DNA from: Micromonospora carbonacea
GTDB lineage: Bacteria > Actinomycetota > Actinomycetes > Mycobacteriales > Micromonosporaceae
Reading direction: 5' to 3'
DNA length: 64,000 bases
Assembly (NCBI RefSeq): GCF_014205165.1
Contig: NZ_JACHMZ010000001.1
Coordinates: forward strand, 3,764,501 to 3,828,500
Below, piece by piece: positions 26,061 to 49,384 of the stretch. The stretch's first letter is position 1. The number at the start of each line of letters is the position of its first letter. A model generated the notes under the pieces. It worked only from the letters and a program-made list of their open reading frames with translations. It was not told the origin of the DNA and did not search any database. The position numbers and the translations under genes were made by a program.

Positions 26061-29000
26061 ATGAGTACTGCACCGCACACGCGCGACCTGATCATGGTTG
26101 TCAACCCTGCCGGCGCACTGGAGCCCGGCCCACGGATCACGGCCGCCGCCTGCGCCGGTGGCGGGCTGGGCGTGCTCGACCTGGCCGGCGGCGACGACTG
26201 GTCGCTGCGCGCGCTGACCCAGGCCGCCTCCTGGTCACCCGGGCCGATCGGGGTCCGGGTGCCGGCCGGCTGCCTGGCCACCCCCGACGAGGTCGACCAC
26301 GCCGCCCGCGGCCGGGTCGACCTGGTGGTGGTCACCGCCGACAGCCCCTGGTCGCTGGCCGAGATCACCCCGCGGTACCGGGTGATCGTGGAGGTCACGA
26401 GCCGGGAGGAGGCCCGCGCAGCCGCGGCGGGCGGCGCGCACGGGCTGATCGCCCGGGGCCTGGAGGGCGGGGGCCGGGTCAGCGACCTCAGCTCCTTCGT
26501 CCTGCTCCAGCAGCTCGTCACCGACGCCACCGTCGACCTGCCGGTCTGGGTGGCCGGCGGGATCGGGCCGCGCACCGCCGGGGCCTGCCTCGTCGGCGGG
26601 GCCACCGGGATCGTCCTGGACACCCAGCTCGCCCTGATGCCCGAGTCCGAGCTGCCGGCCGACGTCAAGGCCGCGATCCGGCGCATGGACGGCTCCGAGA
26701 CGGTGCTGGCCGACGGTGCCCGGGGGATGCGCCGGGGCGGCCAGCACGACGTGCGCTCGGAGCTGCTGCCGATCGGTCAGGACGGCTGGCTCGCCGCCGT
26801 CTTCGCCGACCGCTGGGCCGACACCGCCAGCGCCGTGCGGGCCATGCGGGCCATCATGCTCGACGCCGCCGACGACCCCGAGGCGGGCACGCTGCTGCTG
26901 CCCGGCTCGCCGCTGGCCCAGGCGCTCGGCGTGCGGGTGCCCGTCGCCCAGGGCCCGATGACCCGGGTCAGCGACGAGGCGGGCTTCGCCGCCGCGGTCG
27001 CCGACGGCGGCGCGCTGCCCTTCATCGCGCTCGCCCTGAACTCCGCGGACCAGTGCCGCCGGATGCTCACCGAGACCGCCGAGCGGCTCGGCGACCGGCC
27101 CTGGGGCGTCGGGGTGCTCGGCTTCGCCCCCGAGGAGCTGCGCGCCGCGCAGCTGGCCGTCATCGAGGAGATCCGCCCCGGCTTCGCGATCATCGCGGGC
27201 GGGCGGCCGCCGCAGGCCAAGGCGCTGGAGGAGCAGGGGATCAGCACCTTCCTGCACGTGCCCTCCCCGGGCCTGCTGCGGCAGTTCCTGCGCTCCGGCG
27301 CACGGAAGTTCATCTTCGAGGGCGCCGAGTGCGGCGGGCACATCGGCCCCCGGTTCAGCTTCCCCCTGTGGGAGGCGCAGCTGCTGGTGCTGGAGGAGTA
27401 CCTCGACGCCCAACCGGACGCGGGCGCGCAGCTCCAGGTCTTCTTCGCCGGTGGCGTCCACGACGCCCGCTCGGCGGCGATGGTCGCCACGATGGCCGCG
27501 CCGCTGGCGCGCCGGGGCGCCCGCATCGGCGTGCTCATGGGCACCGCCTACCTGTTCACCGCCGAGGCGGTGGAGCACGGCGCGGTCCAGCCGCTCTTCC
27601 AGCGTGAGGCCCTCACCGCCGAGCGGACCGCCCTGCTGGAGACCGCGCCGGGCCACGTCACCCGCTGCCTGCACACCCCGTTCGTCGACGACTTCCACGC
27701 GCTGCGCGCCCAGCTGGAGCAGGCCGGCGCGGAGAACCGCGAGGTGTGGGAGCAGCTCGAACTGCTCAACGTCGGCCGGCTGCGGATCGCCAGCAAGGGC
27801 CTCAAGCGCAACGGCGAGGTCATCGAGGCGGTGGACGAGGGCGTCCAGGCCGCCGAGGGGCTGTTCATGGCCGGGCAGGTCGCCGTGCTGCGCGACGCCG
27901 CCACGACCGTGGCGGGCCTGCACGACGCCGTCAGCACCGAGGCCCGCGACCTGCACGCCGCCCGGCTCGCCGCGCTGCGCGACCGGCTCGCCCCGCCCGC
28001 CGAGATCGAGGAGCGTCCCGCGCCGCTGGACATCGCCATCGTCGGGATGGCCTGCATGCTGCCCGGCTCCCCCGACCTGGACAGCTTCTGGCGCACCGTG
28101 CTCACCGGCGCCGACGCGGTGACCGAGGTCCCCGCCGAGCGCTGGGACACCGACCTCTACTACGCCCCCGAGGTCGGGCCGGGCCAGACCGGCCGGATCA
28201 GCGTCTCCAAGTGGGGCGGCTTCATCAAGCCGGTGCCCTTCGACGCCATCGGCTACGGCATCCCGCCGACGGCGCTGGGCAGCATCGACCCGACCCAGCT
28301 GCTCGCCCTGGAGGTCTCGCACCGGGCGCTGATCGACGCCGGTTACCCGCACGACGCCGCCGGGGTCGACCACTCCCGCACCGGTGTCGTCTTCGGCGCG
28401 GAGGCCGGCAGCGACATGGGCCACGCGCAGACCCTGCGCACCATGCTGCCGGCGTACTTCGGCGAGGTGCCCGACGAGATGCAGGACCTGCTGCCCACGG
28501 TCACCGAGGACAGCTTCCCCGGGGTGCTGGCCAACGTCATCGCCGGCCGGGTCGCCAACCGGCTCGACCTGGGCGGGCCGAACTACACCATCGACGCCGC
28601 CTGCGCCTCCTCGCTGGCCGCCATGGACGCCGCCTGCAAGGAACTGGCCAGCGGCGACAGCGACATGATGATCTGCGGCGGCGCCGACCTGCACAACGGC
28701 GTCAACGACTACCTGATGTTCACCTCGGCGCACGCGCTGTCCCCCACCGGCCGGTCGCGGCCCTTCGACAGCACCGGCGACGGCATCGCCCTCGGCGAGG
28801 GCGTGGCCTGCGTCGTCCTCAAGCGGCTGGCCGACGCCGAGCGCGACGGCGACCGGATCTACGGCGTGATCAAGGGACTCGGCGGGGCCAGCGACGGCCG
28901 CGCCCTCGGCCTGACCGCCCCCCGCCCCGACGGGCAGCGGCGGGCGCTGGACCGGGCGTACCGACGCAGCGGCGTCTCCCCGCGCGACGTCGGCCTCGTG

Positions 29001-32000
29001 GAGGCGCACGGCACCGGCACCGTCGTCGGCGACCGCACCGAGCTGGAGACCCTGACCCGGATGTTCGTCGATGCCGGCGCGGAGCCGGGCGGCTGCGCGC
29101 TCGGGTCGGTGAAGTCGCAGATCGGGCACACCAAGTGCGCCGCCGGGCTGGCCGGCGTGATCAAGGCGGCCCTGTCGCTGTACCACGGCGTCCGGCCGCC
29201 GACGATCCACCTGAAGCGCCCCAACCCGGCCTGGCACCCGCAGCAGAGCCCGTTCGCCTTCTACACCGAGGCCCGCCCCTGGCCGGCCCCCGCCGAGGAG
29301 CGGATCGCCGGGGTGAGCGCGTTCGGCTTCGGCGGCACCAACTTCCACGTCGTGCTCAGCGCGCACGCCGGCGCCCCCGAGCCCCGGCACGGCCGGCGGC
29401 TCTGGCCGGCGGAGCTGTTCTGCTTCCGGGGCCTCGACCGGGCCGCGGCCCACCAGTCGGTCCGGCAGCTGCTGGACGGCCTCGCCGGCGATGCCGGGCG
29501 GGACCGCCCGGGACGCCTCGCCGAGCTGGCCGCCGCCGTGGCCGCGAAGGCCGCCGGCCGGTCCGGCCCCACCCGGGTGGCGATCGTCGCCCGGGACCTG
29601 ACCGAGCTGGAGGCGCTGCTGCACCGGGCGCTGGCCGGCGAGCACGACCCGGCCCGGGGCCTGGTGCAGCCGGACGAGGTCGAGCCGGTCGGGCCCGGCC
29701 AGGTGGCGTTCCTCTTCCCCGGCCAGGGCAGCCAGCGCCCCGGCGCCCTCGCGGAGCTCTTCGTCGCCTTCCCGGAGCTGCGGCACTACCTCGAACTCGA
29801 CCGCGACGCGGCCGAGCTGCTCTTCCCCGCCGCCGCCTTCGACCAGTCGTCGCGGCGCGAGCAGGAGGAGCGGGTCCGCGACACCCGGGTCGCCCAGCCC
29901 GTGCTCGGCATCGGCGGGCTCGCCGTCGACCACCTGCTGCGCCGCCTCGGCGTACGCCCGGACATGACCGCCGGCCACAGCTACGGCGAGCTGGTCGGGC
30001 TCTGCGTGGCCGGCGCGTTCGACGCGCCCACGCTCATGGCGCTGAGCCGGGAGCGGGCGGCGTCCATCCTGGGCGCCGCCGGCGAGGACCCGGGCACCAT
30101 GGCGGCCGTCAACGCCTCCGCCGACGACGTCGCCCAGGTCCTCGCCAGCGCCGGGCTGACCAGCGAGGTCGTGCTGGCCAACCGCAATTCCCCGAAGCAG
30201 GTGGTGGTCTCCGGGCCGACCGCGAAGGTGCAGTCGGCGGTGGTCGCGCTCAAGGAGGCCGGGCTGTCGGCCAAGGCTCTCTCCGTCGCCTGCGCCTTCC
30301 ACAGCCCCGTGGTGGCCGGCGCGGTGGAGACCTTCGCCGAGGTGCTCGCCGCCCACCGGATCGCCGAGCCGCGCATCCCGGTCTGGTCCAACCTGACCGC
30401 CGCGCGCTACTCCGGCGACGCCGGCCAGGTGCGCCACCACCTCGCCGAGCAGATCGGGGCCCCGGTCCGCTTCGTCGAGCAGGTCGAGGCGATGTACGCC
30501 GCCGGGGCCCGCCTCTTCGTCGAGGTGGGACCCGGCCAGGTGCTCACCCGCCTGGTCAAGGCCGTGCTCGGCGACCGGCCGCACCGCGCGATCGCCTGCG
30601 AGCGCGGGCCCGAGGAGGGGCTGCGCGGCTTCCTGATCTCGGTCGGGGAGCTCGCCTGCGCCGGTGCGCCGGTGCGCCCCGACTGGCTCTTCCACGGCCG
30701 CGTCGCCGCCGACGCGCCCGCCACCGCACCGACCCGTCGTCCGATCTGGACGGTCGACGGGCTGCTCGTCCGGGACCAGCACGGCAACTGTCTTCCCGGT
30801 GGCATGACCCCTCCCCGACGGATCAAGGAGTTGTCGATGACCCCAGCGAACGGTGCCGTCACCGGTACCCCCACCGGCACCGGCCCCGACGCCGGCGGCC
30901 AGGACATCCGTGGCGAGCTGCTCAACGAGTACCTGCGCGCCACCCGGGACATGATCGCCTCCCAGCGTGACGTGATGCTCGCCTTCCTCGGTGAGCCCGG
31001 CAACGGCGGGCCGGGCGGCGGCGGCCGGCTCGTCTGGCAGCCCGCCGAGACGTACCGGGTCGAGGGCCACACGCCGGCCGCGCTGCCGCAGGCAGCGGCG
31101 GCACCCGCCATCGCCCCGCCGGCACCCGCGCCCGCCGCCCCCCGGCCCCCGGCCGCCGCGCCCGCCGCGGCCCCCGTGCCGGCCGTGGCGCTGGCGACCA
31201 ACGGCGGGTCGGCCCTGGCCACGACCATCGCGCCGGCGCGGCCGGTGGCCCCGGCCGTCGTCCCGGTCTCGCCCGCCGTCGGGCCCATCACCCCCGCCCC
31301 TGCCCCGGTGCCGGCTGCGGCCCCGGTGGCCACCGGGCCGAGCGTCGCCGACTTCCAGAACGCCATCCTCGCGGTGATCAGCGAGCGCACCGGCTACCCG
31401 GTCGACCTCATCGAACTCGACCTCGACCTCGAAGCCGACCTCTCCATCGACTCCATCAAGCGCGCCGAGGTCGCCGGCGAGGTCGCCCAACGCCTCGAAC
31501 TCGCCGTCGAAGGCGACGAGTCCGAGCTGGAAGACCTCGTCAAGGCCCGCACCGTCCGCGCCATGGTCACCTGGCTCGACGAGAAGATGGGCTCGGCGCC
31601 CGTCGCCGCCCCGGCGGCCGGGCCGGTCGTCGTCCCGCCCGCCGGCACGCCGGTCGGCGTCACCACGGCCGACTTCCAGCAGGCGATCCTCAGCGTCATC
31701 AGCGAGCGCACCGGCTACCCGGTCGACCTCATCGAACTCGACCTCGACCTCGAAGCCGACCTCTCCATCGACTCCATCAAGCGCGCCGAGGTCGCCGGCG
31801 AGGTCGCCCAACGCCTCGAACTCGCCGTCGAAGGCGACGAGAGCGAGCTGGAAGACCTCGTCAAGGCCCGCACCGTCCGCGCCATGGTCACCTGGCTCGA
31901 CGAGAAGATGGGCGGCAGCGTCCACGTGTCGGTGTCCACCACCGGCCCGGTCGCCCTGCCGACCGCCCCCGTCCCCGCCGCCGCCGCGCCCGGGGCCTCG

Positions 32001-33833
32001 CTCGCCGAGTTCCAGAACGCCATCCTCACGGTGATCAGCGAGCGCACCGGCTACCCGGTCGACCTCATCGAACTCGACCTCGACCTCGAAGCCGACCTCT
32101 CCATCGACTCCATCAAGCGCGCCGAGGTCGCCGGCGAGGTCGCCCAACGCCTCGAACTCGCCGTCGAAGGCGACGAGAGCGAGCTGGAAGACCTCGTCAA
32201 GGCCCGCACCGTCCGCGCCATGGTCACCTGGCTCGACGAGAAGCTCAACGGCGCGGTCACCGCGACGGCGACCCTCACCGCCACGGCGAGCATCGCCGCC
32301 CCGGCCGCCCCCGTGCAGACCGCCCCCGCCGTGGCCCCGGCCGCGCCGGAGCCGGCCGACGCCGGGGTCGGCGTCGGGATCGCCCCGAAGCGGCTGGTGG
32401 CGCAGGAGAGCGTCCGCACCGAGCCGGTCGGCGACCCGGCCACCGTGCTCGCCGGCACCCGGTTCCTGATCACCGGCGGCGGCGCGATCGCGGCGTACCT
32501 GGCGGAGCTGCTCGGCGAGTACGGCGCCAGCGGCCAGCTCGGCGTGCTCGACAGCCAGCAGGCCGGCGAGGGCTTCGACGGGGTGCTCGTCCTCGACGGG
32601 CTCACCAACCTCGACGAGCCGCTGCTGCCCGACGTGTTCCCGCTGTTGCAGCGGGCGCTCGCGACCGGCCCGCGCTGGCTGCTGGCCGCCGGGGCCCGCG
32701 ACGCCGCCGGGGCCGCCGACGGCATGCCCGGCCTGTTCCGCACCATCGCCCGCGAGTACCCGCAGCTGACCGCCCGCTTCGTCGAGGTGGACCCGGCCGC
32801 CGCGGCGGACGTGCTCGCCCGGCAGCTCCTGGACGAGGTGCTCACCAGCAGCGAGGCGCCGGTGGTGTACCTCCGGGGCGACGACCGTTACGTCGCCGAC
32901 CTGGTGCCGGTGGAGCTGGGCGCGCTGGCCGCCGGCGGGGCCGGCCCGGCCGGCGACGGGGTGGCCGAGGCCGCCGCGATCGGCCTGGAGCCCGACTCGG
33001 TGATCGTCCTGATCGGCGGGGCGCGGGGCATCACCCCGTGGTTCGCCCGGACGCTCGCCTCGGCCAGCCGGTGCCGCATCGAGCTGGTCGGCCGCACCGC
33101 GCTGCCCGAGGGCCCGGAGGACCCGGCGCTGGCCGCGGCCGGCGACAAGCAGGCCCTGGTCGCGGCGCTGGCCCGGCAGGGCCTGCGCAACCCCGCCGAG
33201 ATCGACCGCACCGCCCAGCGCATCCTGGCCGCCCGGGAGGTCAACGCGACCATCGCCGAGCTGACCGAGCTCGGTGGCGAGGTCCGCTACCACACCCTCG
33301 ACGTCCGCGACACGGCCGCGACCCGGCACCTGCTGGGCCGCATCCACGCCGAGCACGGCCGGCTCGACGGCCTGGTGTACGCCGCCGGGATCATCGAGGA
33401 CAAGCTGATCGCCGAGAAGGACCCGGCCTCGTTCACCCGGGTCTTCGACACGAAGGTCGACGGGGCGCGCGGGCTGCTGACCGCCCTGGACGAGCTGCCC
33501 GCCAAGCCGCGCTTCGTGGTCTTCTTCGGCAGCATCGCCGCCGCCTACGGCAACCGGGGGCAGTCCGACTACGCGGCCGCCAACGACGCCCTGGACACGA
33601 TCGGCACCCGCTACGCGGCCCGCACCGGGGTCCGCACCGTGACCGTCCACTGGGGGCCGTGGGCGCCCGGCGCCGGCCACGGCGGCATGGTCACCGCCGA
33701 GCTGAGCCGGGAGTACGCCCGCCGCGGCATCGGCCTGATCGACCCGGAGGAGGGCGCGCTGGCCCTGCTGCGCGAGCTGGCCTGGGCCGACGCGGCGGTC
33801 ACCTCGGTCGTCTACACCGCCTCGGGCTGGTGA
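26061..33833 (+). CDS. PUFA-synthase-like iterative PKS: ER-like x2, KS, AT, ACP x3, KR
   Basis: A 2590-residue cytoplasmic megasynthase. Order: PfaD/nitronate-monooxygenase-like barrel 1 (about 10-215), barrel 2 (about 285-630), KS (about 655-1100, Cys848 in DAACASS, His in EAHGTGT and GHTK), AT (about 1210-1510, Ser1307 in GHSYGE), Pro/Ala linker, three ACPs with LSIDSIKR motifs (Ser1798, Ser1905, Ser2017), a degenerate nucleotide-fold segment (about 2128-2290) and a KR (about 2313-2590, VLIGGARGI and SDYAAAN). The KS-AT-ACPn-KR order and LSIDSIKR motif are PfaA-like; PfaD is normally a separate enoyl reductase but is fused here. Start 26061 has GGGAG five bases upstream; an earlier in-frame start at 25908 has no site. 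The product is probably a reduced or polyene lipid chain. Confidence 0.93.
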   Translation: MSTAPHTRDLIMVVNPAGALEPGPRITAAACAGGGLGVLDLAGGDDWSLRALTQAASWSPGPIGVRVPAGCLATPDEVDHAARGRVDLVVVTADSPWSLAEITPRYRVIVEVTSREEARAAAAGGAHGLIARGLEGGGRVSDLSSFVLLQQLVTDATVDLPVWVAGGIGPRTAGACLVGGATGIVLDTQLALMPESELPADVKAAIRRMDGSETVLADGARGMRRGGQHDVRSELLPIGQDGWLAAVFADRWADTASAVRAMRAIMLDAADDPEAGTLLLPGSPLAQALGVRVPVAQGPMTRVSDEAGFAAAVADGGALPFIALALNSADQCRRMLTETAERLGDRPWGVGVLGFAPEELRAAQLAVIEEIRPGFAIIAGGRPPQAKALEEQGISTFLHVPSPGLLRQFLRSGARKFIFEGAECGGHIGPRFSFPLWEAQLLVLEEYLDAQPDAGAQLQVFFAGGVHDARSAAMVATMAAPLARRGARIGVLMGTAYLFTAEAVEHGAVQPLFQREALTAERTALLETAPGHVTRCLHTPFVDDFHALRAQLEQAGAENREVWEQLELLNVGRLRIASKGLKRNGEVIEAVDEGVQAAEGLFMAGQVAVLRDAATTVAGLHDAVSTEARDLHAARLAALRDRLAPPAEIEERPAPLDIAIVGMACMLPGSPDLDSFWRTVLTGADAVTEVPAERWDTDLYYAPEVGPGQTGRISVSKWGGFIKPVPFDAIGYGIPPTALGSIDPTQLLALEVSHRALIDAGYPHDAAGVDHSRTGVVFGAEAGSDMGHAQTLRTMLPAYFGEVPDEMQDLLPTVTEDSFPGVLANVIAGRVANRLDLGGPNYTIDAACASSLAAMDAACKELASGDSDMMICGGADLHNGVNDYLMFTSAHALSPTGRSRPFDSTGDGIALGEGVACVVLKRLADAERDGDRIYGVIKGLGGASDGRALGLTAPRPDGQRRALDRAYRRSGVSPRDVGLVEAHGTGTVVGDRTELETLTRMFVDAGAEPGGCALGSVKSQIGHTKCAAGLAGVIKAALSLYHGVRPPTIHLKRPNPAWHPQQSPFAFYTEARPWPAPAEERIAGVSAFGFGGTNFHVVLSAHAGAPEPRHGRRLWPAELFCFRGLDRAAAHQSVRQLLDGLAGDAGRDRPGRLAELAAAVAAKAAGRSGPTRVAIVARDLTELEALLHRALAGEHDPARGLVQPDEVEPVGPGQVAFLFPGQGSQRPGALAELFVAFPELRHYLELDRDAAELLFPAAAFDQSSRREQEERVRDTRVAQPVLGIGGLAVDHLLRRLGVRPDMTAGHSYGELVGLCVAGAFDAPTLMALSRERAASILGAAGEDPGTMAAVNASADDVAQVLASAGLTSEVVLANRNSPKQVVVSGPTAKVQSAVVALKEAGLSAKALSVACAFHSPVVAGAVETFAEVLAAHRIAEPRIPVWSNLTAARYSGDAGQVRHHLAEQIGAPVRFVEQVEAMYAAGARLFVEVGPGQVLTRLVKAVLGDRPHRAIACERGPEEGLRGFLISVGELACAGAPVRPDWLFHGRVAADAPATAPTRRPIWTVDGLLVRDQHGNCLPGGMTPPRRIKELSMTPANGAVTGTPTGTGPDAGGQDIRGELLNEYLRATRDMIASQRDVMLAFLGEPGNGGPGGGGRLVWQPAETYRVEGHTPAALPQAAAAPAIAPPAPAPAAPRPPAAAPAAAPVPAVALATNGGSALATTIAPARPVAPAVVPVSPAVGPITPAPAPVPAAAPVATGPSVADFQNAILAVISERTGYPVDLIELDLDLEADLSIDSIKRAEVAGEVAQRLELAVEGDESELEDLVKARTVRAMVTWLDEKMGSAPVAAPAAGPVVVPPAGTPVGVTTADFQQAILSVISERTGYPVDLIELDLDLEADLSIDSIKRAEVAGEVAQRLELAVEGDESELEDLVKARTVRAMVTWLDEKMGGSVHVSVSTTGPVALPTAPVPAAAAPGASLAEFQNAILTVISERTGYPVDLIELDLDLEADLSIDSIKRAEVAGEVAQRLELAVEGDESELEDLVKARTVRAMVTWLDEKLNGAVTATATLTATASIAAPAAPVQTAPAVAPAAPEPADAGVGVGIAPKRLVAQESVRTEPVGDPATVLAGTRFLITGGGAIAAYLAELLGEYGASGQLGVLDSQQAGEGFDGVLVLDGLTNLDEPLLPDVFPLLQRALATGPRWLLAAGARDAAGAADGMPGLFRTIAREYPQLTARFVEVDPAAAADVLARQLLDEVLTSSEAPVVYLRGDDRYVADLVPVELGALAAGGAGPAGDGVAEAAAIGLEPDSVIVLIGGARGITPWFARTLASASRCRIELVGRTALPEGPEDPALAAAGDKQALVAALARQGLRNPAEIDRTAQRILAAREVNATIAELTELGGEVRYHTLDVRDTAATRHLLGRIHAEHGRLDGLVYAAGIIEDKLIAEKDPASFTRVFDTKVDGARGLLTALDELPAKPRFVVFFGSIAAAYGNRGQSDYAAANDALDTIGTRYAARTGVRTVTVHWGPWAPGAGHGGMVTAELSREYARRGIGLIDPEEGALALLRELAWADAAVTSVVYTASGW
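30825..30839 (+). promoter_or_regulatory. Possible internal ribosome site in the PKS gene
   Basis: AAGGAG at 30825-30830 stands six bases before an in-frame ATG at 30837 (residue 1593), exactly at the AT-to-ACP linker. It could start a separate ACPx3-KR polypeptide of 998 residues, or be a scar of a past gene fusion. Confidence 0.4.
31377..32243. repeat. Three near-identical 210-bp ACP-coding repeats
   Basis: Copies at 31377-31586, 31698-31907 and 32034-32243 encode the three ACP cores. By eye they differ only at one serine codon (TCC in copy 1, AGC in copies 2 and 3). The linkers between them differ freely. Such identity at synonymous sites indicates recent duplication or gene conversion. 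Confidence 0.9.
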
Positions 33834-33885: not shown

Positions 33886-36800
33886 ATGAGCAACGGCGCA
33901 CCCGCGCCCGGCCAGATCGCGATCGTCGGGATGGCCGCCCTGATGCCCTCCGCCGGTGACCTGGAGAGCTACTGGCGCAACCTGATCAACGGGGTCGACG
34001 CGATCACCGACGTGCCGCCGCACCGGTGGGACGAGGAGTTCTACGACCCGGAGCAGGCGCACCGCCCGGACCGGATGTACTGCAAGCGCGGCGGCTTCGT
34101 CGACGAGTTCGCCACGTTCGAGCCGCTGCGGTTCGGGGTGATGCCCGCCTCCATCGGCGACATCGAGCCCGACCAGCTGATCACGCTGGAGGTGGCCGCC
34201 GCCGCGATCGACGACGCGGGCGGCGCCGACAAGATGCCCGACGGCGAGCGAGTCGGCGTCATCCTCGGCCGGGGCGGCATCCTCAGCCCCGCCCAGGCCC
34301 GCTACGCCCAGCGGGTGCGGATGTCCAGCCAGGTCATCGGGATCCTGCGGGAGCTGATCCCGGACGTCGACCCGGCCCGGCTGGAGCTGCTGCGCAAGAA
34401 GTTCGACGAGCGGCTCGGCCCGTACCAGCCGGAGGGGACCATCGGCCTGGTGCCGAACCTGGCCGCCTCCCGGGTGGCCAACCGGCTCAACCTGCGCGGC
34501 CCCGCGTACACCATCGACGCGGCCTGCGCCTCCTCGCTGATCGCCGTGGACCAGGGCATCACGGAGCTGCTCAACGGCCGGCTCGACGCGGTGCTCGCCG
34601 GCGGCGTGCACCACGTGCACGACATCAGCTTCTGGTCGGTGTTCAACCAGCTCCGGGCGTTGTCGCGGCAGGGCGAGATCCGGCCGTTCGACGCCGCCGC
34701 CGACGGGCTGCTGATCGGCGAGGGCACCGGCGTGGTGGTGCTCAAGCGGTACGCCGACGCGGTCCGCGACGGCGACCGGATCTACGCGGTGATCCGGGGC
34801 AGCGGGGTGTCCAGCGACGGCAAGTCCGCCAGCATGTTCAACCCGGCGGTCTCCGGGCAGGTGCTGGCCATCAAGCGGGCCTGGGAGGCCGCCGGGCTCG
34901 ACCCGACCGCCCCGGACGCGCTGGGGCTGCTGGAGGCGCACGGCACCGGCACCCCGACCGGGGACGCCGCCGAGCTGACCACCGTGGCCCAGGTGTTCGG
35001 CCCGTACACCGGCGGCCCCCGCCCGGTCATCGGGTCGGTCAAGTCGATGATCGGGCACACCATGCCGGCCGCCGGCGTCGCCGGCCTGATCAAGGCCGCG
35101 ATGGCGGTCCACCGGGGCGTGCTGCCGCCCACCCTGCACTGCGAGTCCCCCCGGGCGGAGATGGCGGCGACCCGGTTCGCCCCGATCGCCACCGCGCAGC
35201 CGTGGGAGAGCGACGGGCCGCGCCGGGCCGGGGTCAACGCGTTCGGCTTCGGCGGGATCAACGCCCACCTGGTCATCGAGCAGGCGCCCGCGTCGGCCGG
35301 CGAGCCGCTCGTCGGGTTCACCGCGCCGGCCGCCGGAGCCGGGTCGGTCACGGTCGACGAGGCCGACCAGGTGCTGTGGCTGGCCGCGTCGAGCCCGGCC
35401 GGGCTCGCCGAGCTGCTGGACCGCGACGACGAGACGGTCCGCCGCCTCGGCGCCGACCTGGCCGCGCGCTCGGGCGGCGACGCGCCGGGGCGGGCCCGCC
35501 TCGGCATCGTCAACCCCACCGACAAGCTGCTCGCCGTGGCCCGCAAGACGGTGGCCCGGGGGCAGGCGTGGCGGGGCGGGCGGGACATCTGGTTCAGCCC
35601 GCAGCCGCTGCTGGCCGACGGGGCGGGCAAGCTCGCGTTCGTCTTCCCCGGCCTGGAGGCGGAGTTCTCGCCGCGCACCACCGACCTGGCCGCCCACTTC
35701 GGGCTGCCCGACCGGGAGTGGTCCGCCGCCGACCTGGGCCGGCACGGCGCCGGCCTGATCGAGGTCGGCAAGCTGTTCAACGAGGCGCTGGAACGCATCA
35801 ACGTGCGCCCGGACGCCGTCTCCGGGCACAGCATCGGCGAGTGGACCGCGGCCGCCGTCAGCGGCCAGATCAGCACCGCCGCGATGGACGAGTTCCTGGA
35901 GCTGTTCAATGCCGACTCGGTGGAGGTCTCCGGCTACGTCTTCGCCGCCGTCGGCGCGGGCGCCGACCGGGTCACCCCGCTGCTCGGTGACTTCCCCGGG
36001 GTGGTGCTCTCGCACGACAACGCGCCGGCGCAGTCGGTGGTGAACGGGCCGGAGACCCAGGTGGACCGCCTGGTGGAGGCGCTGCGGGGCCGCAACATCC
36101 TGTGCCAGAAGCTGCCGTTCCGCTCGGCGTTCCACACCCCCGCGTTCGCCGAGGGGCTCACCTCGATCGGCGCGGCGCTGGGCCGGTGGGAGGTGCACCC
36201 GACCCGGATGCCGGTGTGGTCGGCGACCCTGCACGCGCCGTTCCCGCCCGACGAGGACCAGGTCAACCACATCTTCGTCCGGCACATGATGGAGCCGGTC
36301 TGGTTCCGGCAGACCGTCGAGGCGATGTACGCCGACGGGTTCCGCGTCTTCCTCCAGGTCGGCGCGGGGCAGCTCGCCTCGCTAATCGGCGACAACCTGC
36401 GCGGGCGCGACCACCTCGCGATGCCGGTGAACACGGCGCACCGTACCGGGCTGAACCAGCTCCGCCGGGTCGCCACCGCGCTGTGGGTGGAGGGGGCGGC
36501 CCCGGACCTGGGGGCCCTGTCGACCCCGCGGCGCACCGCGCCGGCCGCGCCGGCGAGCACCGCCCCGGCGAAGCCCACCAGCAGCACCGGTCGGCGCGGG
36601 CCCCGGGTGAAGCTCGACCTCGGCGGCCCGCTGGTCCGCCTCGGCGCGGACGCGGCCGGCCTGCTCGGGCTGGACGCCATGCCGGCCGCCACCGCCGCGC
36701 CGACGCCGGTGCGGTCCGCCGGCAACGGGGCGTCCGCCGCCCGGCCGGTGGTGGGCAACGGCACCCCGGGCCCCCGCCCGGCCGCCGGCAACGGCAGCCC

Positions 36801-41078: not shown

Positions 41079-41122
41079 GGGCCCGGACCACCGGGCCCGG
41101 CCGCCGGTGTCCCACCCTTTTT
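41079..41122 (+). terminator. Hairpin with T tract after the sulfotransferase
   Basis: An 8-bp stem GGGCCCGG/CCGGGCCC with an ACCA loop is followed 20 bases later by five Ts. It could end the PKS-ACP-hydrolase-sulfotransferase message. Confidence 0.5.
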
Positions 41123-41142
41123 GCTGGAAAGAGAGGCAGTTG

Positions 41143-42978
41143 GTGAATCCACTCCGGATCTCCACTCGGCGGCTGTTAGCCGCCGTTGCCGTGCTCGGGC
41201 TCGGGCCCGTGCTGGCGGTCCCCGCGGCGGCGCTCGGCGCGCCGCTCGACGCCGCCGGGGCGGCCGGCGGCCAGCCGCCGACCACGCAGCTCCTCGCCAA
41301 GGCCCCGCCGGACGAGTGCTTCGCCGGGATCGGGCAGCCGTACCCGGCGGGTCCGCCCTGCGAGACGGGGCAGGCGAAGGTCAACCAGGCGTACCTGTGG
41401 GGAATGACCCGCGCCGGCCGGACGCTGTTCTTCGGCACCGGAGCGAACGTCAACTGCCTGACCAGCGGCCGGACGCTGGAGAACACCGTGCCGACGCAGA
41501 ACGCCGACTGGGTCTGCGAGTACGGCGAGAGCCAGATCGCCAAGCGCAACCCCCAGTTGCCGGTCAAGCTGGGCGACCACCGCATCCCGCGGCTGTACAC
41601 GTACGACACCAAGTCGAACCAGCTCACCGAGAAGACCGAGTTGGTGAAGGCCGCCTCGCCCGACGACGCGACCCGGCTGCAGAACACGGTCGGCATCCGG
41701 GCCGCCGGCAACTACGGCGGCGTGGCCCTGCTGGGCGGACCGGCGCTGGGCGAGAGCATCAACCTCTTCGCCTTCGACACCGACACCGGGGCCTTCCTGG
41801 GCTCGCACAACTTCACCGCGTACGGCAACATCCGGCACTTCACCGTCGCCGACGGCGCGCTCTACGCCGGCGTGGGCGTGGGCAACAACGGCGGCAACCG
41901 CGGCCACGTGCTGCGCTGGATGGGCAGCAAGACCGACCCGTTCAACTTCGTCCAGGTGGCGACCCTGCCGGCGCAGGCCGCCGACCTGACCGTCCACGAG
42001 GGCCGGATCTTCGTCACCACCTGGCCGGGGGCGACCGAGGAGTTCGGTGAGGAGGCGACGGAGGCGGCGGAGCCGACGGAGCCGCCGGCGAGCATCGCCT
42101 CGGTGTGGATGAGCCCGAAGCTCTCCGACGGCGAGCCGGGGCTCACCCCGTCCGACGACGCCGCCTGGCAGCAGGTGTGGAACGTGGCCAGCTACGAGCC
42201 CGACCCGGTGGTCGCCTACTCCTACGGTCTCGGCGGCCTGGCCTCCTACGGCGGCTACCTCTACTGGGGCACCATGCACGTGCCGATGAAGGCCACCAGC
42301 CTGCACCTGAGCATCTACCCGCCGGTCGACGAGGCCGGGATCACCGCGACGGCCCAGAACACCCAGCGGGCGATCAGCATCTACCGGGGCAAGGGCTTCG
42401 GCTCCTCGAAGCAGAAGGTGGACCTGCTCTACGGCGCGACCGAGCTGCCCGCGTTCGACCCGGAGGCCAACAACGGGGTCGGGGCGTGGACCACGAAGTC
42501 GACCAACTACACCCCGAAGTACGGCGCCGCAGGCTTCGGCAACCCGTACAACAACTACACCTGGAAGATGGCGGTGGCCGCCGGGAAGCTCTACGTCGGC
42601 ACCATGGACTGGAGCTACCTGGCCAAGGAGTTCGGCCAGCAGACCGCCGCCCAGCTCGGCCTGTCGCCGCAGATGGGTGACGTGCTGGCCAAGGCGCCGG
42701 CCGTGGCGGCGGCACCGCCCGGAATGCGGGCCACCGCCGAGATCCCCGAGGCGGTGTACGGCGGCGACCTGTACGCGTTCTCCTCGACCCGCAAGGCGGC
42801 GACGACGATCAGCGACACCGGGGTGGGCAACTACCTCAACTACGGGGTGCGCAACATGGTCGTCGACGGTCCCAACCTCTACCTGGGCATGGCGAACCCG
42901 ATGAACCTGCGGACCGACCCGAACGACGACGTGCCCGAGGGCGGCTGGGAGCTGATCAAGCTCAAGGCCGGCTGCTGA
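41143..42978 (+). CDS. Exported propeller-like protein of unknown function
   Basis: A 611-residue protein I do not recognise. A basic N-terminus and hydrophobic core (about residues 8-33, ending LGAP) form a Sec signal. The rest has six or seven spaced units with a G-x-LYxGT/M pattern (for example DGALYAGVGVG, GGYLYWGTMHV, AGKLYVGTMDW, GPNLYLGMANP), as expected for a beta-propeller. It ends in Cys, and has two Cys pairs near the mature N-terminus. GTG at 41143 is chosen over an ATG at 41107 because GAAAGAGAGG precedes it and the signal begins there. Its place inside the cluster suggests a role in product binding or processing outside the cell. Confidence 0.8.
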   Translation: MNPLRISTRRLLAAVAVLGLGPVLAVPAAALGAPLDAAGAAGGQPPTTQLLAKAPPDECFAGIGQPYPAGPPCETGQAKVNQAYLWGMTRAGRTLFFGTGANVNCLTSGRTLENTVPTQNADWVCEYGESQIAKRNPQLPVKLGDHRIPRLYTYDTKSNQLTEKTELVKAASPDDATRLQNTVGIRAAGNYGGVALLGGPALGESINLFAFDTDTGAFLGSHNFTAYGNIRHFTVADGALYAGVGVGNNGGNRGHVLRWMGSKTDPFNFVQVATLPAQAADLTVHEGRIFVTTWPGATEEFGEEATEAAEPTEPPASIASVWMSPKLSDGEPGLTPSDDAAWQQVWNVASYEPDPVVAYSYGLGGLASYGGYLYWGTMHVPMKATSLHLSIYPPVDEAGITATAQNTQRAISIYRGKGFGSSKQKVDLLYGATELPAFDPEANNGVGAWTTKSTNYTPKYGAAGFGNPYNNYTWKMAVAAGKLYVGTMDWSYLAKEFGQQTAAQLGLSPQMGDVLAKAPAVAAAPPGMRATAEIPEAVYGGDLYAFSSTRKAATTISDTGVGNYLNYGVRNMVVDGPNLYLGMANPMNLRTDPNDDVPEGGWELIKLKAGC

Positions 42979-43093: not shown

Positions 43094-44170
43094 ATGATGA
43101 CTTTTTCCGATTTTCGCCCTGCCGCCGGGACGCCCGGCGGTCGGTCGCACCGACCGTCGCCCTCCCCCGCCGCCACCCGACTCGCCGGGGCGCTCGCGCT
43201 CCTCGTCGGGCTGACCCTGCTCGCCGGCTGCACCCGCGGCGGCGGCGGGATCGGTGACGGCGGGCCGGGGGCCGACCGGGCCTCCGACGGCGCGTCGACG
43301 GCGGACGTGCCCGTCGGCTCGTCCCAGCGCACCCTGACCGTCGACGGGCGCGAACGCACCTACCGGCTGTACCGGCCCGCCTCGGCGAAGCTGACCGAGC
43401 CGGTCCCGCTCGTGGTCATGCTGCACGGCGCGGCCGGCACCGGCGAACAGGCCGAGGAGGCGTACGGCTGGACGGAGGAGGCCGACCGCAACGGCTTCGT
43501 GGCCGTCTTCCCCGACGGCATCAACCGCGCCTGGGCGGTCGGGCGCGAGTGCTGCGGCGCGCCGGCCCGCGAGGGCGTCGACGACGTCAAGTTCATCACG
43601 GAGCTGGTCCGCACCGTCGGCGAGACGGTCCCGGTCGACCCGGCCCGCACGTACGTCTCCGGGATCTCCAACGGCGGGCTGCTGGCGTTCCGGCTGGTCT
43701 GCGACACCACGGTCTTCGCCGCCGTCGGCGCGGTGGCGACCACCCTCACCGGGCAGTGCGACGACCCCAAGCCGGTGTCGGTGCTGCACATCCAGGGCAA
43801 GCTCGACAAGACCATGCCCTACGGCGGCGGCCCCGGCCGGCGCGACAACGGCGGCACCGGCCGCAACCCGGTGAAGATCGACGGCCCGCCCGCCCCCGAG
43901 CTGGCCGCCCGGTGGCGCGCCGTCGACGACTGCGGCGAGCCGAAGGACACCACCGACGGCCCGGTCGTCCGCACCGCCGCCACCTGCCCCGAGGGGCGCG
44001 CCGTCGAGCTGATCACCATCACCGACGCCGGCCACCAGTGGCCCGGCGGCAAGCCGAACCCGCCCCGCGCGCAGCGGCTGCTCAACCTCGACCCGCCCTC
44101 CACCGCGCTGAACGCCACCGAGACCATCTGGCAGTTCTTCAGCGCCCACCCCAAGCCCGCCGGCGGCTGA
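43094..44170 (+). CDS. LpqC-like esterase lipoprotein
   Basis: A 358-residue surface esterase of the PHB-depolymerase/LpqC type. The lipobox TLLAGC ends at Cys46. The catalytic region shows VVMLHGAAGTGEQAEEAYGW, the nucleophile Ser192 in GISNGG, a QGKLDKTMPYGGG segment with a probable acidic residue, and AGHQWPGG with the catalytic His. The first 25 residues before the signal core are unusually long; no good ribosome site marks 43094, and an ATG three bases later is possible. Strong hairpins on both sides suggest it is transcribed alone. A link to the cluster product is possible but not shown. Confidence 0.87.
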   Translation: MMTFSDFRPAAGTPGGRSHRPSPSPAATRLAGALALLVGLTLLAGCTRGGGGIGDGGPGADRASDGASTADVPVGSSQRTLTVDGRERTYRLYRPASAKLTEPVPLVVMLHGAAGTGEQAEEAYGWTEEADRNGFVAVFPDGINRAWAVGRECCGAPAREGVDDVKFITELVRTVGETVPVDPARTYVSGISNGGLLAFRLVCDTTVFAAVGAVATTLTGQCDDPKPVSVLHIQGKLDKTMPYGGGPGRRDNGGTGRNPVKIDGPPAPELAARWRAVDDCGEPKDTTDGPVVRTAATCPEGRAVELITITDAGHQWPGGKPNPPRAQRLLNLDPPSTALNATETIWQFFSAHPKPAGG

Positions 44171-44224: not shown

Positions 44225-44253
44225 GCACCCCGCACCCCCAGACAGGAGAGCAG

Positions 44254-45432
44254 ATGCCCAGCAGAGACGGGCCGGCCGTGGTCGAGGTCGCCGACCTCGT
44301 CAAGCGCTACCCCCGCAGCGACACCAACGCCGTGGACGGGCTGTCGTTCGCCGTCGCGCCGGGCGAGATCTTCGGACTGTTCGGGCCCAACGGCGCCGGC
44401 AAGTCCACCACCGTCGGCATCCTCACCACCCGGCTGCGGGCCACCGGCGGCCGGGTGCTGGTCGGCGGCGTCGACGTCGGGCGCGACCCCGCGGCCGCCC
44501 GCGCCCAACTGGCCGTGGTGCCCCAGCACAACAACCTGGACCGTGCCCTGACCCCCCGGCAGAACCTGGTCTACCACGCGACCTACCACGGGCTGCCCCG
44601 GCGGGAGGCCGAGAGCCGGGCCGGGGAGCTGCTGGAACGCTTCGGCCTCACCGAGCGGGCCGACCGGCGCATCGAGGCGTACTCCGGCGGGATGGCCCAG
44701 CGGCTGATGATCGCCCGGGCACTCACCCACGACCCGATGGTGCTCTTCCTCGACGAGCCGACCAACGCCCTCGACCCGCAGACCCGGCTGCTGATCTGGG
44801 GCCAGATCCGCCAGCTGCGCGAGCGCGGCGTCGCGATCGTGCTCACCACCCACGCGATGAACGAGGCGGCCCGGATCGTCGACCGGGTCGGCATCGTCGA
44901 CCACGGCAGGCTGCTCACCTGCGACACCCCGGACAACCTGGTCCGGGGCCTGGCCGGCGACGCGCTGCTCGACCTCACGCTCACCCCGGCCCCCGGCGAC
45001 GACCCGGAGGCGCTGTGCGCCGCCCTGGGCGAGCTGGACGGCGTACGCAAGGCGGAGCGGCTCGCGTCGCCCACCGTGCCGGCCGGTCTGCGGGGCGGCG
45101 CGGGGCTGCCCGGCGGAGCCGGCGGCGGCGCGGCGCTGGCGGCCCTGGCCGCGCGGGCCGGCGGCGGGGCGCGGCCCGGTGGCGGCGGCCTGGCCGCCCT
45201 GGCCGGCGCGGGCCTCCTCGGGCGCGGCGGCGCGGCGGGCCGCAACGGCGGGGGCCCGGCCGGGCGCGGCCGGCTGCGCGTGCGCCTGCACCTGGCCACC
45301 GACCCCGCCGCGCTGCTCGGCGCGGCGGTCACCGTGCTCACCACGCGGTCGGCGGCGCTCAACGCCATCGACATCGGGGAGCCGAGCCTGGAGGACGTCT
45401 TCATCGAACTGACCGGAAGGGAACCACGGTGA
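44254..45432 (+). CDS. ABC exporter ATPase, DrrA-like
   Basis: ATPase of an ABC-2 exporter, 392 residues. Walker A GPNGAGKST, a Q-loop, the signature YSGGMAQRLMIARAL, Walker B VLFLDEPTNALD and an H-loop TTHAM are intact. The C-terminal domain ends with GEPSLEDVFIELTGR, typical of the DrrA/daunorubicin-resistance subfamily. Unusual is a Gly/Ala/Leu-rich insert of about 65 residues (about 275-340) splitting that domain; its DNA is low in complexity. GGAGAG precedes the ATG. The stop overlaps the permease start (GTGA). Probable role: export of the cluster product. Confidence 0.93.
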   Translation: MPSRDGPAVVEVADLVKRYPRSDTNAVDGLSFAVAPGEIFGLFGPNGAGKSTTVGILTTRLRATGGRVLVGGVDVGRDPAAARAQLAVVPQHNNLDRALTPRQNLVYHATYHGLPRREAESRAGELLERFGLTERADRRIEAYSGGMAQRLMIARALTHDPMVLFLDEPTNALDPQTRLLIWGQIRQLRERGVAIVLTTHAMNEAARIVDRVGIVDHGRLLTCDTPDNLVRGLAGDALLDLTLTPAPGDDPEALCAALGELDGVRKAERLASPTVPAGLRGGAGLPGGAGGGAALAALAARAGGGARPGGGGLAALAGAGLLGRGGAAGRNGGGPAGRGRLRVRLHLATDPAALLGAAVTVLTTRSAALNAIDIGEPSLEDVFIELTGREPR

Positions 45433-46253
45433 CCGCTGTAGACACGCCGACCCCGCTGCGACCGGCGGTCACCCCACGCCCGCGGCCCGGCGCCGGCCGG
45501 GTGTTCGCCGCCGTGCTGCGCCGCGACCTCATGGTCACCGGCCGGGAGCTGTGGGTCATCCTGGTGCAGGTCGGGCTGACCCCGCTGTTCATGCTCTTCG
45601 TGTTCGACACGATCCTCGGCGGGCAGGGCATCGTCGGGCGCAACTTCGCCGACCTCTTCCTGCCCGGCATCATCGCGCTGGCCGCCCTCACCACCGCGTT
45701 GCAGAGCGTGGCCCTGCCGCTGGTGAAGGAGTTCGGCTTCACCATGGAGATCGAGGACCGGCTGATGGCCCCGCTGCCGACCAGCCTCGTCGCGATCGGC
45801 AAGCTGGTCATCGCCACCGTCCGCGGGCTGATCGCGGCCCTGCTGATCTATCCGCTCGGCGCGCTGGTGGTCGGCTCCGCGCCGTGGCGTCCGGAGGGGC
45901 TGCCCCTGGCGTTCGTGGTGGCGCTGCTCGGCGCGTGGATCGGCGGGGCCATCGGGATGAGCCTGGCCACCACCCTGCCGGTGCAGCGGATCAACGTCAC
46001 CTTCTCGGTGATCCTCACCCCGATCATCTGGACCGGGTGCATCCACTACCCCTGGCCGAGGCTGTCGCTGCCCTGGTACCAGGTGGTCACCGCGCTCAAC
46101 CCGATGACGTACGTCTCGGAGGGGGTGCGCGGGGCGCTGCTGCCCGAGGTGCCGCACATCCCGGCGTGGGTGTGCCTGAGCGTGCTCACCGGGGTGGCCG
46201 TGGCGCTGACCTGGCTCAGCGTCCGCTGCTTCAGTCGACGGGCGGTCCAGTGA
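45429..46253 (+). CDS. ABC-2 exporter permease, DrrB-like
   Basis: Membrane half of the exporter, 274 residues with six hydrophobic segments. The ABC-2 region shows FADLFLPGIIALAALTTALQSV and the conserved LNPMTYVSEGVRGALL segment before the last helix. GTG at 45429 overlaps the ATPase stop. Forty bases separate it from cysQ, so exporter and sulfur genes may share a transcript. Confidence 0.93.
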   Translation: MTAVDTPTPLRPAVTPRPRPGAGRVFAAVLRRDLMVTGRELWVILVQVGLTPLFMLFVFDTILGGQGIVGRNFADLFLPGIIALAALTTALQSVALPLVKEFGFTMEIEDRLMAPLPTSLVAIGKLVIATVRGLIAALLIYPLGALVVGSAPWRPEGLPLAFVVALLGAWIGGAIGMSLATTLPVQRINVTFSVILTPIIWTGCIHYPWPRLSLPWYQVVTALNPMTYVSEGVRGALLPEVPHIPAWVCLSVLTGVAVALTWLSVRCFSRRAVQ

Positions 46254-46293
46254 CCGCCCGGGCGTTACCCACCGGCCCCTGCGAGGAGCTGCC

Positions 46294-47178
46294 ATGCCGA
46301 CCCTGACCCCTCCGGAATCCGACGCGGCGCTCGCCCGCCGGCTCGCGGCCCACGCCGGCGAGCTGCTGCTGCGGGTACGCTCCGCGCACGGCCACGGTGA
46401 CCCGGCCGCGCTGAAGGCCGCCGGCGACCGGGCCTCCCACGACCTCCTGCTCGCCGAGCTGGCGTCCCACCGACCGGACGACGCGGTCCTGTCCGAGGAG
46501 GACAAGGACTCCCGCGCGGTCGGGCACGTCGACGCCGGCGGCCGGCTGACCGCCGACCGGGTGTGGATCATCGACCCGTTGGACGGGACCCGGGAGTTCT
46601 CCGAGGAGGGCCGTTCGGACTGGGCGGTGCACGTGGCGCTGTGGGCGCGCGGCGCGTCGACGCCGCACCGCCTGGTGGCGGGGGCCGTGGGCCTGCCCGC
46701 GCAGGGGCGGGTGCTGGCCACCGACGTGCCGCCGACGCCGCCGGCCCCCTCCGCCGACGCCGCCGCGCCGCTGCGGCTGGCGGCCAGCCGCAGCCGTCCC
46801 CCGGCCTTCCTGGCGGACCTGGCCGCCGAGATCGGCGCCGAGCTGGTGCCGATGGGCTCGGCGGGGGCGAAGATCGCCGCTGTGGTGGCCGGTGAGGTCG
46901 ACGCGTACGTCCACGCGGGCGGCCAGTACGAGTGGGACTCGGCCGCCCCGGTGGCCGTGGCCACCGCCGCCGGCTTCCACGCCTCGCGGGTCGACGGCTC
47001 CCCACTGGCCTACAACCAGGCCGACCCGCGCCTGCCCGACCTGCTGGTGTGCCGTCAGGAGCTCGCCGCGCCGCTGCTCGCCGCCCTCGCGCGGCAGCTC
47101 TCCGGCGCGGCGGCCCCCGGCGGCTCCGGCGTCCCCTCGACCGGAGGCGTCCCCTCGACCGGAAAGGACACGCGATGA
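46294..47178 (+). CDS. cysQ: 3'(2'),5'-bisphosphate nucleotidase, CysQ-like
   Basis: Hydrolyses PAP, the inhibitory by-product of sulfotransferases, to AMP. The 294-residue inositol-monophosphatase-fold protein has the metal motifs SEEDKDS, WIIDPLDGTREF and, near the end, EWDSAAP. GGAG precedes the ATG. Its stop overlaps the cysD start (ATGA). The last residues come from an 18-bp direct repeat encoding VPSTGG/VPSTGK. With a sulfotransferase in the same cluster, PAP clearance is the natural role; general sulfur assimilation or inositol phosphate hydrolysis are alternatives. Confidence 0.92.
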   Translation: MPTLTPPESDAALARRLAAHAGELLLRVRSAHGHGDPAALKAAGDRASHDLLLAELASHRPDDAVLSEEDKDSRAVGHVDAGGRLTADRVWIIDPLDGTREFSEEGRSDWAVHVALWARGASTPHRLVAGAVGLPAQGRVLATDVPPTPPAPSADAAAPLRLAASRSRPPAFLADLAAEIGAELVPMGSAGAKIAAVVAGEVDAYVHAGGQYEWDSAAPVAVATAAGFHASRVDGSPLAYNQADPRLPDLLVCRQELAAPLLAALARQLSGAAAPGGSGVPSTGGVPSTGKDTR

Positions 47179-48089
47179 GCAGCGGATCGGCTGCGTACCA
47201 GGTCTCCCAGCTCGACGAGTTGGAGGCGGAGAGCATCTTCGTGATGCGTGAGGTGGTTGCGGAGATGGAGCGGCCGGTGCTGCTCTTCTCGGGTGGTAAG
47301 GATTCGATCGTGATGTTGCGGTTGGCGCAGAAGGCGTTTGCGCCGGCGAGTGTGCCGTTTCCGGTGATGCATGTGGATACGGGGCACAACTTTCCCGAGG
47401 TGTTGGAGTATCGGGATCGTCGGGTGGCGGAGTTGGGGTTGCAGTTGATCGTGGCGTCGGTGCCGGAGGCGTTGGCGCGGGGGTTGGTGCGGGAGTCCGG
47501 GGACGGGATGCGGAACCGGATCCAGACGCCGGTGTTGTTGGACGCGGTGGAGAAGCACCGGTTCGACGCGTTGTTTGGTGGGGCGCGTCGGGATGAGGAG
47601 AAGGCGCGGGCGAAGGAGCGGGTGTTCTCGTTCCGGGACGAGTTCGGGCAGTGGGATCCGAAGAACCAGCGGCCGGAGTTGTGGTCGTTGTACAACGGTC
47701 GGCATCATCCGGGTGAGTCGATCCGGGTGTTCCCGTTGTCGAACTGGACCGAGTTGGATGTGTGGCACTACATCGCGCGGGAGCGGATTCCGTTGCCGTC
47801 GATCTATTTCGCGCATGAGCGTGAGGTGGTGGAGCGGGACGGGATGTTGTATGCGGTGAACGAGTTCTTCACCCCGCGGGCGGGTGAGGAACGGTTCGTG
47901 GAGGTGGTGCGGTACCGGACGGTGGGGGATGCGTCGTGTACGGCGGCGGTGCGGTCGGACGCGGCGAGTGTGGTGGCGGTGATCGAGGAGGTGGCCGCGA
48001 CGCGGGTCACCGAGCGGGGTGCGACGCGGGGCGACGACCGGGTCAGTGAGGCCGCCATGGAGGACCGTAAGCGGGAGGGGTACTTCTGA
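47175..48089 (+). CDS. cysD: Sulfate adenylyltransferase subunit 2
   Basis: Small catalytic subunit of ATP sulfurylase, forming APS from sulfate and ATP with CysN. The 304-residue PP-loop protein shows LLFSGGKDSIVMLRLA, HVDTGHNFPEV, FGGARRDEEKARAKERVFSFRD and the long conserved block FPLSNWTELDVWHYIARE. It is coupled to cysQ by an ATGA overlap and to cysN by a TGATG overlap. Codon use changes abruptly near 47,215: TTG leucine, GTG/CGG and third-position G or T dominate, unlike the C-ending codons of the genes before it. Confidence 0.97.
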   Translation: MSSGSAAYQVSQLDELEAESIFVMREVVAEMERPVLLFSGGKDSIVMLRLAQKAFAPASVPFPVMHVDTGHNFPEVLEYRDRRVAELGLQLIVASVPEALARGLVRESGDGMRNRIQTPVLLDAVEKHRFDALFGGARRDEEKARAKERVFSFRDEFGQWDPKNQRPELWSLYNGRHHPGESIRVFPLSNWTELDVWHYIARERIPLPSIYFAHEREVVERDGMLYAVNEFFTPRAGEERFVEVVRYRTVGDASCTAAVRSDAASVVAVIEEVAATRVTERGATRGDDRVSEAAMEDRKREGYF

Positions 48090-49384
48090 TGAGCATCGAC
48101 ATGGCGCCGGTCGAGGTGGAGGCGCGGCCGATGGACCTGTTGCGGTTCGCCACGGCCGGGAGTGTGGACGACGGTAAGTCGACGTTGATCGGCCGGTTGT
48201 TGTATGACACGAAGTCGTTGTTCACCGATCAGTTGGCGGCGGTGGAGGCGGTGTCGGCGGCGCGGGGGGACGAGTACACGAACCTGGCGTTGTTGACCGA
48301 CGGGTTGCGGGCGGAGCGGGAGCAGGGCATCACGATCGACGTGGCGTACCGGTACTTCGCGACGCCGCGGCGGAAGTTCATCATCGCGGACACGCCGGGT
48401 CACATCCAGTACACGCGGAACATGGTGACGGGGGCGTCGACGGCGGACCTGGCGTTGATCCTGGTGGACGCGCGTAAGGGCCTGGTGGAGCAGTCGCGGC
48501 GGCACGCGTTCCTGTGTTCGTTGTTGCGGGTGCCGCACCTGGTGTTGTGTGTGAACAAGATGGACCTGGTCGACTTCGACCGGGAGGTGTTCGAGGCGAT
48601 CGCGGACGAGTTCACGGCGTTCGCGGCGAAGCTGGACGTGCCGGACCTGACGGTGGTGCCGGTGTCGGCGCTGCGGGGGGACAACATCGTGTCCCGGTCG
48701 GAGGACATGCCGTGGTATGAGGGGCCGTCGTTGCTGCACCATCTGGAGCGGGTGCACATCGCCTCGGACCGGAACCTGCAGGACGTGCGGTTCCCGGTGC
48801 AGTACGTGATCCGGCCGCAGTCCACCACGGTGACCGACTACCGGGGGTATGCCGGTCAGGTCGCCTCGGGCGTGCTCAAGGCCGGTGACGAGGTGATGGT
48901 GTTGCCGTCGGGGTTCACCTCGCGCATCGCCGCGGTGGAGACCGCCGACGGGCCGGTGGAGGAGGCGTTCCCCCCGATGTCGGTCACCGTGCGGCTGGAA
49001 GACGAGATCGACATCTCCCGTGGAGACATGATCTGCCGGCCGCACAACGCCCCGGCGGTGGCGCAGGACATCGAGGCGATGGTCTGCTGGATGGACGAGA
49101 CCCGTCCCTTGACCGTCGGCGGCCGCTACGCCATCAAGCACACCACCCGCTCCGCGCGGGCCATCGTGCGGGGCCTGCACTACCGCCTCGACATCAACTC
49201 CCTGCACCGCGACGAAACCGCCACCGAACTCAAACTCAACGAGATCGGCCGGATCCGCATCCGCACCACCGTTCCGCTGCTCGTCGACGACTACCACCGC
49301 AACCGCACGACGGGCGGCTTCGTGATCATCGACGAGGCCACCAACCGCACGGTGGGCGCGGGCATGGTCGTGCAACGGGACTGA
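48089..49384 (+). CDS. cysN: Sulfate adenylyltransferase subunit 1
   Basis: GTPase subunit of ATP sulfurylase, 431 residues. G-domain motifs are GSVDDGKSTLIGRLL, DTPGHIQYTRNM and NKMDLVD, followed by two beta-barrel domains. No APS kinase domain is fused (a NodQ-type protein would be about 200 residues longer), so PAPS formation needs a cysC product from elsewhere. The TTG-rich codon style continues from cysD to about 49,000, then reverts within the gene to the C-ending style of the neighbourhood. That mosaic suggests recombination inside the gene. Confidence 0.97.
   Translation: MSIDMAPVEVEARPMDLLRFATAGSVDDGKSTLIGRLLYDTKSLFTDQLAAVEAVSAARGDEYTNLALLTDGLRAEREQGITIDVAYRYFATPRRKFIIADTPGHIQYTRNMVTGASTADLALILVDARKGLVEQSRRHAFLCSLLRVPHLVLCVNKMDLVDFDREVFEAIADEFTAFAAKLDVPDLTVVPVSALRGDNIVSRSEDMPWYEGPSLLHHLERVHIASDRNLQDVRFPVQYVIRPQSTTVTDYRGYAGQVASGVLKAGDEVMVLPSGFTSRIAAVETADGPVEEAFPPMSVTVRLEDEIDISRGDMICRPHNAPAVAQDIEAMVCWMDETRPLTVGGRYAIKHTTRSARAIVRGLHYRLDINSLHRDETATELKLNEIGRIRIRTTVPLLVDDYHRNRTTGGFVIIDEATNRTVGAGMVVQRD

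Follow-up and report, generated by a model that had tools for sequence, protein, structure and literature searches.

Why a cluster of polyunsaturated fatty acid (PUFA)-synthase-like genes should be accompanied by genes for sulfation and sulfate activation is the question raised by a 64,000 nt stretch (the window; C1:3764501-3828500) of the single-contig, 7.53 Mb genome of the soil actinomycete Micromonospora carbonacea. The cluster comprised twelve genes on one strand (26061-49384, + strand), including two polyketide synthases, PKS1 (26061-33833) and PKS2 (33886-38835), a free acyl carrier protein (ACP, 38916-39221), an alpha/beta hydrolase (ABH, 39218-40048), a 3'-phosphoadenosine 5'-phosphosulfate (PAPS) sulfotransferase (ST, 40075-41037) and a secreted 623-aa beta-propeller (SEC, 41107-42978). 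The best explanation of the whole, which we favour with some reservation from sequence comparison, is that the cluster makes a sulfated lipid which is used outside the cell, and this lipid is probably an undescribed one.

A comparison of the ST with the glycosyltransferases (GT) of sister clusters gave the strongest new support for a sulfated lipid. In 12 genomes a divergent PKS1 was found, with 48-59% identity across those residues of its N-terminal 660 aa that matched, and the order of PKS1, PKS2, ACP and ABH was kept; in three of these genomes (G285, G224 and G239) ACP and ABH were separated by a phosphodiesterase-family gene. The sister clusters differed in having a GT where the M. carbonacea cluster has the ST. 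The GT followed ABH in all 12, as the next gene in nine and after a gap of approximately 0.6 kb in the same three, and no ST was found after ABH in the stretches read, that of G224 stopping 1.3 kb past ABH. GT probes produced no match in the 19 other ST-bearing regions (18 cluster regions and that of G171) and SEC was not found in the 12 GT-cluster genomes. An ST at the place where all 12 sister clusters have a GT fits a sulfated lipid. The tree of the PKS1 KS domain, from which two of the 20 ST regions were omitted (G171 with no PKS, and G336 with no PKS1 in its stretch), placed the 18 ST clusters in one clade with a local support of 0.987; when the tree is rooted at its midpoint, this clade is nested inside the GT clusters. 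This suggests that, on chains of one kind, sulfate replaced sugar in a single event, a direction which we infer and which depends on the rooting. If true, a lipid assembly line swapped its sugar head group for sulfate, and some lineages then gained an extra sulfate-activation operon.

The genes of the cluster also occurred together. A scan of named genomes produced 42 loci, and the order PKS2-ACP-ABH-ST-SEC-esterase was kept in all 11 Micromonosporaceae loci (L005-L015), a recurrence which indicates that the arrangement is more than chance; the other 31 loci, with an ST identity of 29-35%, had no ABH match. In a survey of 354 Micromonosporaceae genomes, ST matches were found in 72. Those with at least 55% identity were defined as orthologous and occurred in 56 genomes (58 loci), while the other 16 genomes had matches of only 28-39%. 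PKS1 (N-terminal 660 aa, at least 63% identity) was present in 57 genomes, not counting the 12 with the divergent form, and SEC (E ≤ 1e-60) in 56, every one of which was PKS1-positive. All three were present together in 55 genomes (Fisher P below 1e-60, uncorrected for relatedness). PKS1 accompanied the ST in 55 of the 56 ST-bearing genomes, and the PKS and ST, whose conservation in relatives had been raised as a check by the initial annotation, do stay together. Three strays were seen: G171 (ST alone), G174 (PKS1 and SEC, in approximately 780 contigs) and G101 (PKS1 alone, in a 69% complete genome). SEC paralogues outside the cluster, two of them in M. carbonacea, were found only in cluster-bearing genomes, their counts being lower bounds with at most three candidates scored per genome. 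This confinement points to an extracellular product and, if true, SEC would be a dedicated secreted propeller family that occurs only where the synthase occurs in the 354 genomes searched. Two or three SEC genes in tandem were observed in the Actinoplanes-like clusters L014, L015, G030 (L080) and G012 (L082).

All genes named in the initial annotation were confirmed on the + strand within 26061-49384, but its list did not include SEC, a lipoprotein esterase and an upstream TauE gene. A codon-position filter selected seven of the 12 + strand genes, and the remaining five (ACP, ST, two ABC genes and cysD) were called from family matches. PKS1 is PfaA-like, with the domain order NMO/PfaD-like ER-KS-AT-3 ACP-KR, and scored over the NCBIfam PfaA cut-off (TIGR02813, 1028.5 against 1010.1 bits), while PKS2, with the Pfam domains KS-AT-DH-PPTase, scored under it (448.2 bits). 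The PfaD-like ER of PKS1 (PF03060) and the PPTase of PKS2 (PF01648) were both above cut-off, and the KS, AT and ACP motifs of the cluster were intact. PKS2 had one KS and a PS-DH, and no CLF domain was reported in it by Pfam. The cluster shares with Pfa and secondary-lipid synthases the PfaA-like KS-AT-ACP-KR, the PfaD-like ER, DH and PPTase, but differs from them in that the ER is fused to the PKS1 N-terminus, the PPTase is fused to PKS2, and the ST, the propeller and cysQDN are attached. The main text of Shulse and Allen (2011; PMC3098273) contains no mention of Micromonospora, Actinoplanes, Salinispora or the word sulfotransferase.

Of the smaller proteins, the free ACP (PF00550) had the motif LGMESID, and ABH had a Ser108-His244-Glu132 triad. 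The catalytic Ser and His were present in all 40 ABH sequences compared, the acid being Glu in 39 and Asp in one, and ABH is probably the off-loading enzyme. The ST matched PF13469 and PF00685, and its GRCGSTLL motif was invariant in 25 aligned sequences. SEC belonged to no Pfam or NCBIfam family, and its signal peptide was recognised by eye; among the matches listed for it, the best was 99% identical to a protein of M. carbonacea. The lipoprotein esterase (43094-44170) is PHB-depolymerase-like (PF10503; NF050058, 166 against a cut-off of 150), with an LAGC lipobox seen by eye. An ABC exporter ATPase (44254-45432) resembled DrrA with a score under the DrrA model cut-off and was followed by an ABC-2 permease (45429-46253; PF01061). 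Ahead of its C-terminus, the ATPase had a long region rich in Gly and Ala to which several relatives do not align.

In the proposed pathway, the two-protein PUFA-synthase-like line would build a hydroxylated, probably unsaturated acyl chain, which would be released by the free ACP and the hydrolase. The ST would place the sulfate of PAPS on the hydroxyl that the sister clusters would glycosylate, and the ABC pair would export the resulting sulfolipid, which SEC and the lipoprotein esterase may bind or act on outside the cell. The extra copy of the CysQ-like and CysDN proteins would supply more adenosine 5'-phosphosulfate (APS) and clear 3'-phosphoadenosine 5'-phosphate (PAP), with the APS converted to PAPS by the genome's single APS kinase elsewhere. 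The sulfated or sulfate-processed polyketide lipid put forward by the initial annotation is partly supported: it fits the linkage of PKS and ST and the presence of an ST in place of a GT, but the link of the cluster to cysQDN is loose and the product is one that we infer.

Several findings weigh against a sulfated lipid of this kind. In genome G171, which had an ST of 62% identity, the 38 kb that were read contained no ABH, and neither PKS1 nor SEC was found in the genome. The M. carbonacea cluster had no APS kinase, with no match to PF01583, and no cysD was seen nearby in 24 of the 58 ST loci. The nearest solved structures of the ST model were the CurM and Ols sulfotransferases. Finally, the GT-cluster genome G022 also had an ST of 35% identity, approximately 13 kb upstream of its PKS. 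This ST gene was observed beside genes for a thioesterase, an ADH, a KSIII and a 3-hydroxyacyl-CoA dehydrogenase (L138:13682-19568).

The sulfate-activation genes at the downstream end encoded a CysQ-like phosphatase of the Inositol_P family (46294-47178), the small subunit of ATP sulfurylase, CysD (47175-48089; TIGR02039, 442.0 against a cut-off of 396.6), and its GTPase subunit, CysN (48089-49384; TIGR02034, 570 against 336.1), which had no APS-kinase domain. The name CysQ agrees with the resemblance to the Inositol_P family and the operon context, but at 94.4 bits the protein scored under the CysQ cut-off of 228.8, as did the other copy in the genome at 75.6; it is a probable PAP phosphatase. 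The one APS kinase of the genome, located at 638 kb, was part of a fusion whose ATP sulfurylase portion scored weakly, and cysH was located next to sulfite reductase at 0.77 Mb. The cluster could, as judged from its genes, make APS, but it has no APS kinase of its own. A second cysQDN set was found at 6.05 Mb (6048463-6052134) in the housekeeping block glmU-prs-rplY-pth-cysQDN-galK-galE. The case considered by the initial annotation, that the only cysDN copy lies in the cluster, is thus false for this genome, and general assimilation need not use the cluster copy.

It is possible, if doubtful, that the linkage of cysQDN is incidental and that the cluster sits at a pre-existing copy which serves general assimilation. 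The claim that the cluster carries its own sulfate genes held for 22 of the 58 ST loci, where a cysD of the same strand followed 2.7-6.2 kb downstream and the genomes all had at least two cysD matches, a pattern that argues against an incidental linkage. In another 11 loci, all of one genus (g4), cysD was again of the same strand but 11.9-15.0 kb downstream, and it was the sole match of the genome in 10, G024 having a second, with glmU-prs-rplY-pth between the cluster and cysD in the two loci read (G012 and G030); these loci favour the incidental reading. One locus had a partial cysD nearby on the opposite strand. In the 24 loci with no cysD nearby, which also favour an incidental linkage, cysD was far off on the same contig in 10 and on another contig or unfound in 14; since some of the 14 end at a contig edge, 24 is an upper bound, and in G245 (L012) the start of cysD was visible at the contig end. 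Attachment was also piecemeal, G338 having a cluster cysQ without cysD, and G321 and G270 having cysDN without a detected cysQ.

Among 55 genomes sampled from the 282 without an ST match, 52 had a single cysD match, which also speaks against the incidental reading; two matches, partial or distant, were found in G174, G178 and G028, the first of which was PKS1- and SEC-positive. In M. carbonacea the cluster cysDN was approximately 98% identical in DNA to the pair at 6.05 Mb, a near identity that suits a general copy, and cysQ was 78% identical. Across 13 genomes the identity between cluster and housekeeping DNA was 83.6-100% for cysD and 83.7-100% for cysN (a partial sequence being used for the cluster cysN of G141), and 72.6-84.6% for cysQ in 12 genomes. 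Trees, which were read from drawings with no support values printed, showed that the cluster copies of cysQ form one clade (14/14), while copies of the same genome were sisters in 9 of 13 cases for cysD and 11 of 13 for cysN. A cysQ clade of its own argues that the copy has long been kept, and the trees would be accounted for by a single ancient duplication after which cysDN underwent gene conversion. Overall, cysQDN is an accessory in part of the cluster family.

A TauE/SafE (TSUP) membrane transporter gene (24292-25485, - strand; PF01925, E 9.3e-38) was divergent from PKS1 and may be a sulfate carrier. CysZ is presumably of the same superfamily as TauE/TSUP. In PMC1266029, Corynebacterium CysZ is described as a likely sulfate permease. 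TauE was found upstream here and in eight of the 17 other clusters with the upstream side read, at 3.7-9.7 kb, and all nine TauE-bearing clusters had cysQ and/or cysDN attached. Among the nine clusters read without TauE, cysDN was attached only in G321, and G012 and G030 were near the housekeeping cysQDN copy. Just upstream of TauE, another PHB-depolymerase-like esterase was observed (22755-24110, + strand), which also had a cellulose-binding module.

The best rival for the chemistry of the ST is a reaction like that of CurM and cyanobacterial Ols, with free-standing enzymes here, in which the ST would sulfate the chain at its beta-hydroxyl while it is bound to ACP. The hydrolase would then cleave the thioester and, with sulfate as the leaving group, decarboxylation would give a terminal alkene. 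CurM and Ols sulfotransferases prime the chain for decarboxylation and do not decorate a final product. The Ols and CurM pathways share with the cluster an ACP, an ST of the same fold and, in the case of the CurM thioesterase, a Ser-His-Glu hydrolase. The predicted ST model (pLDDT 89) had CurM and Ols as its best structural matches, which favours the alkene, but human TPST2, a protein sulfotransferase, was within 1 Z and tied with them in Z, with fewer residues aligned, and the Foldseek TM-score against the CurM ST was only 0.46. The cluster differs from both pathways in its free-standing proteins, in having no fatty acyl-ACP ligase among its genes (the AMP-binding gene at 58050-59543 belongs to a separate Ole-like cluster) and in a triad that is not specific to ST clusters. 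The triad was present in the ABHs of all 12 sister clusters, with no ST after them, and is thus not tied to sulfation. The residue following the catalytic His was T, S, A or Y in all 40 ABH sequences and not the Asn of the CurM thioesterase. The secreted partners and the exporter also suit a hydrocarbon less well, and we consider the alkene unlikely. In its extended form, a PUFA-type synthase would end by beta-sulfation and decarboxylation to a polyunsaturated terminal alkene, with the sulfate recaptured by TauE and cysQDN, and this version appears just as improbable. That the ST acts on another target, such as a protein or another lipid, with the PKS product as a mere neighbour, is very unlikely given that ST and PKS1 were together in 55 of 56 genomes, that no signal peptide was seen by eye in the ST whereas SEC is secreted, and that SEC is missing in G171, where the ST stands alone.

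The preferred sulfated lipid would resemble mycobacterial sulfolipid-1, whose pathway also combines a PKS lipid, a sulfotransferase and export, but with another PKS type and another sulfotransferase family (Stf0), and is not known to have a linked propeller. If true, the cluster adds an undescribed actinobacterial sulfolipid or, under the rival chemistry, a sulfate-driven hydrocarbon.

Approximately 6.5 kb past cysN, an Ole/beta-lactone-type cluster was located on the - strand (55905-61444). It included an OleA-like thiolase/KSIII (60329-61444, -) and an AMP-binding OleC-like gene (58050-59543, -), both identified by Pfam, and a P450-like gene (56897-58057, -), an OleD-like SDR and a GT2-like gene, which were read from translations. 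Within the fetched stretches of the 19 other ST regions, OleA, OleC, P450 and OleD were all without a match. The OleA gene at 60329-61444 was the only match in the M. carbonacea genome at E ≤ 1e-20.
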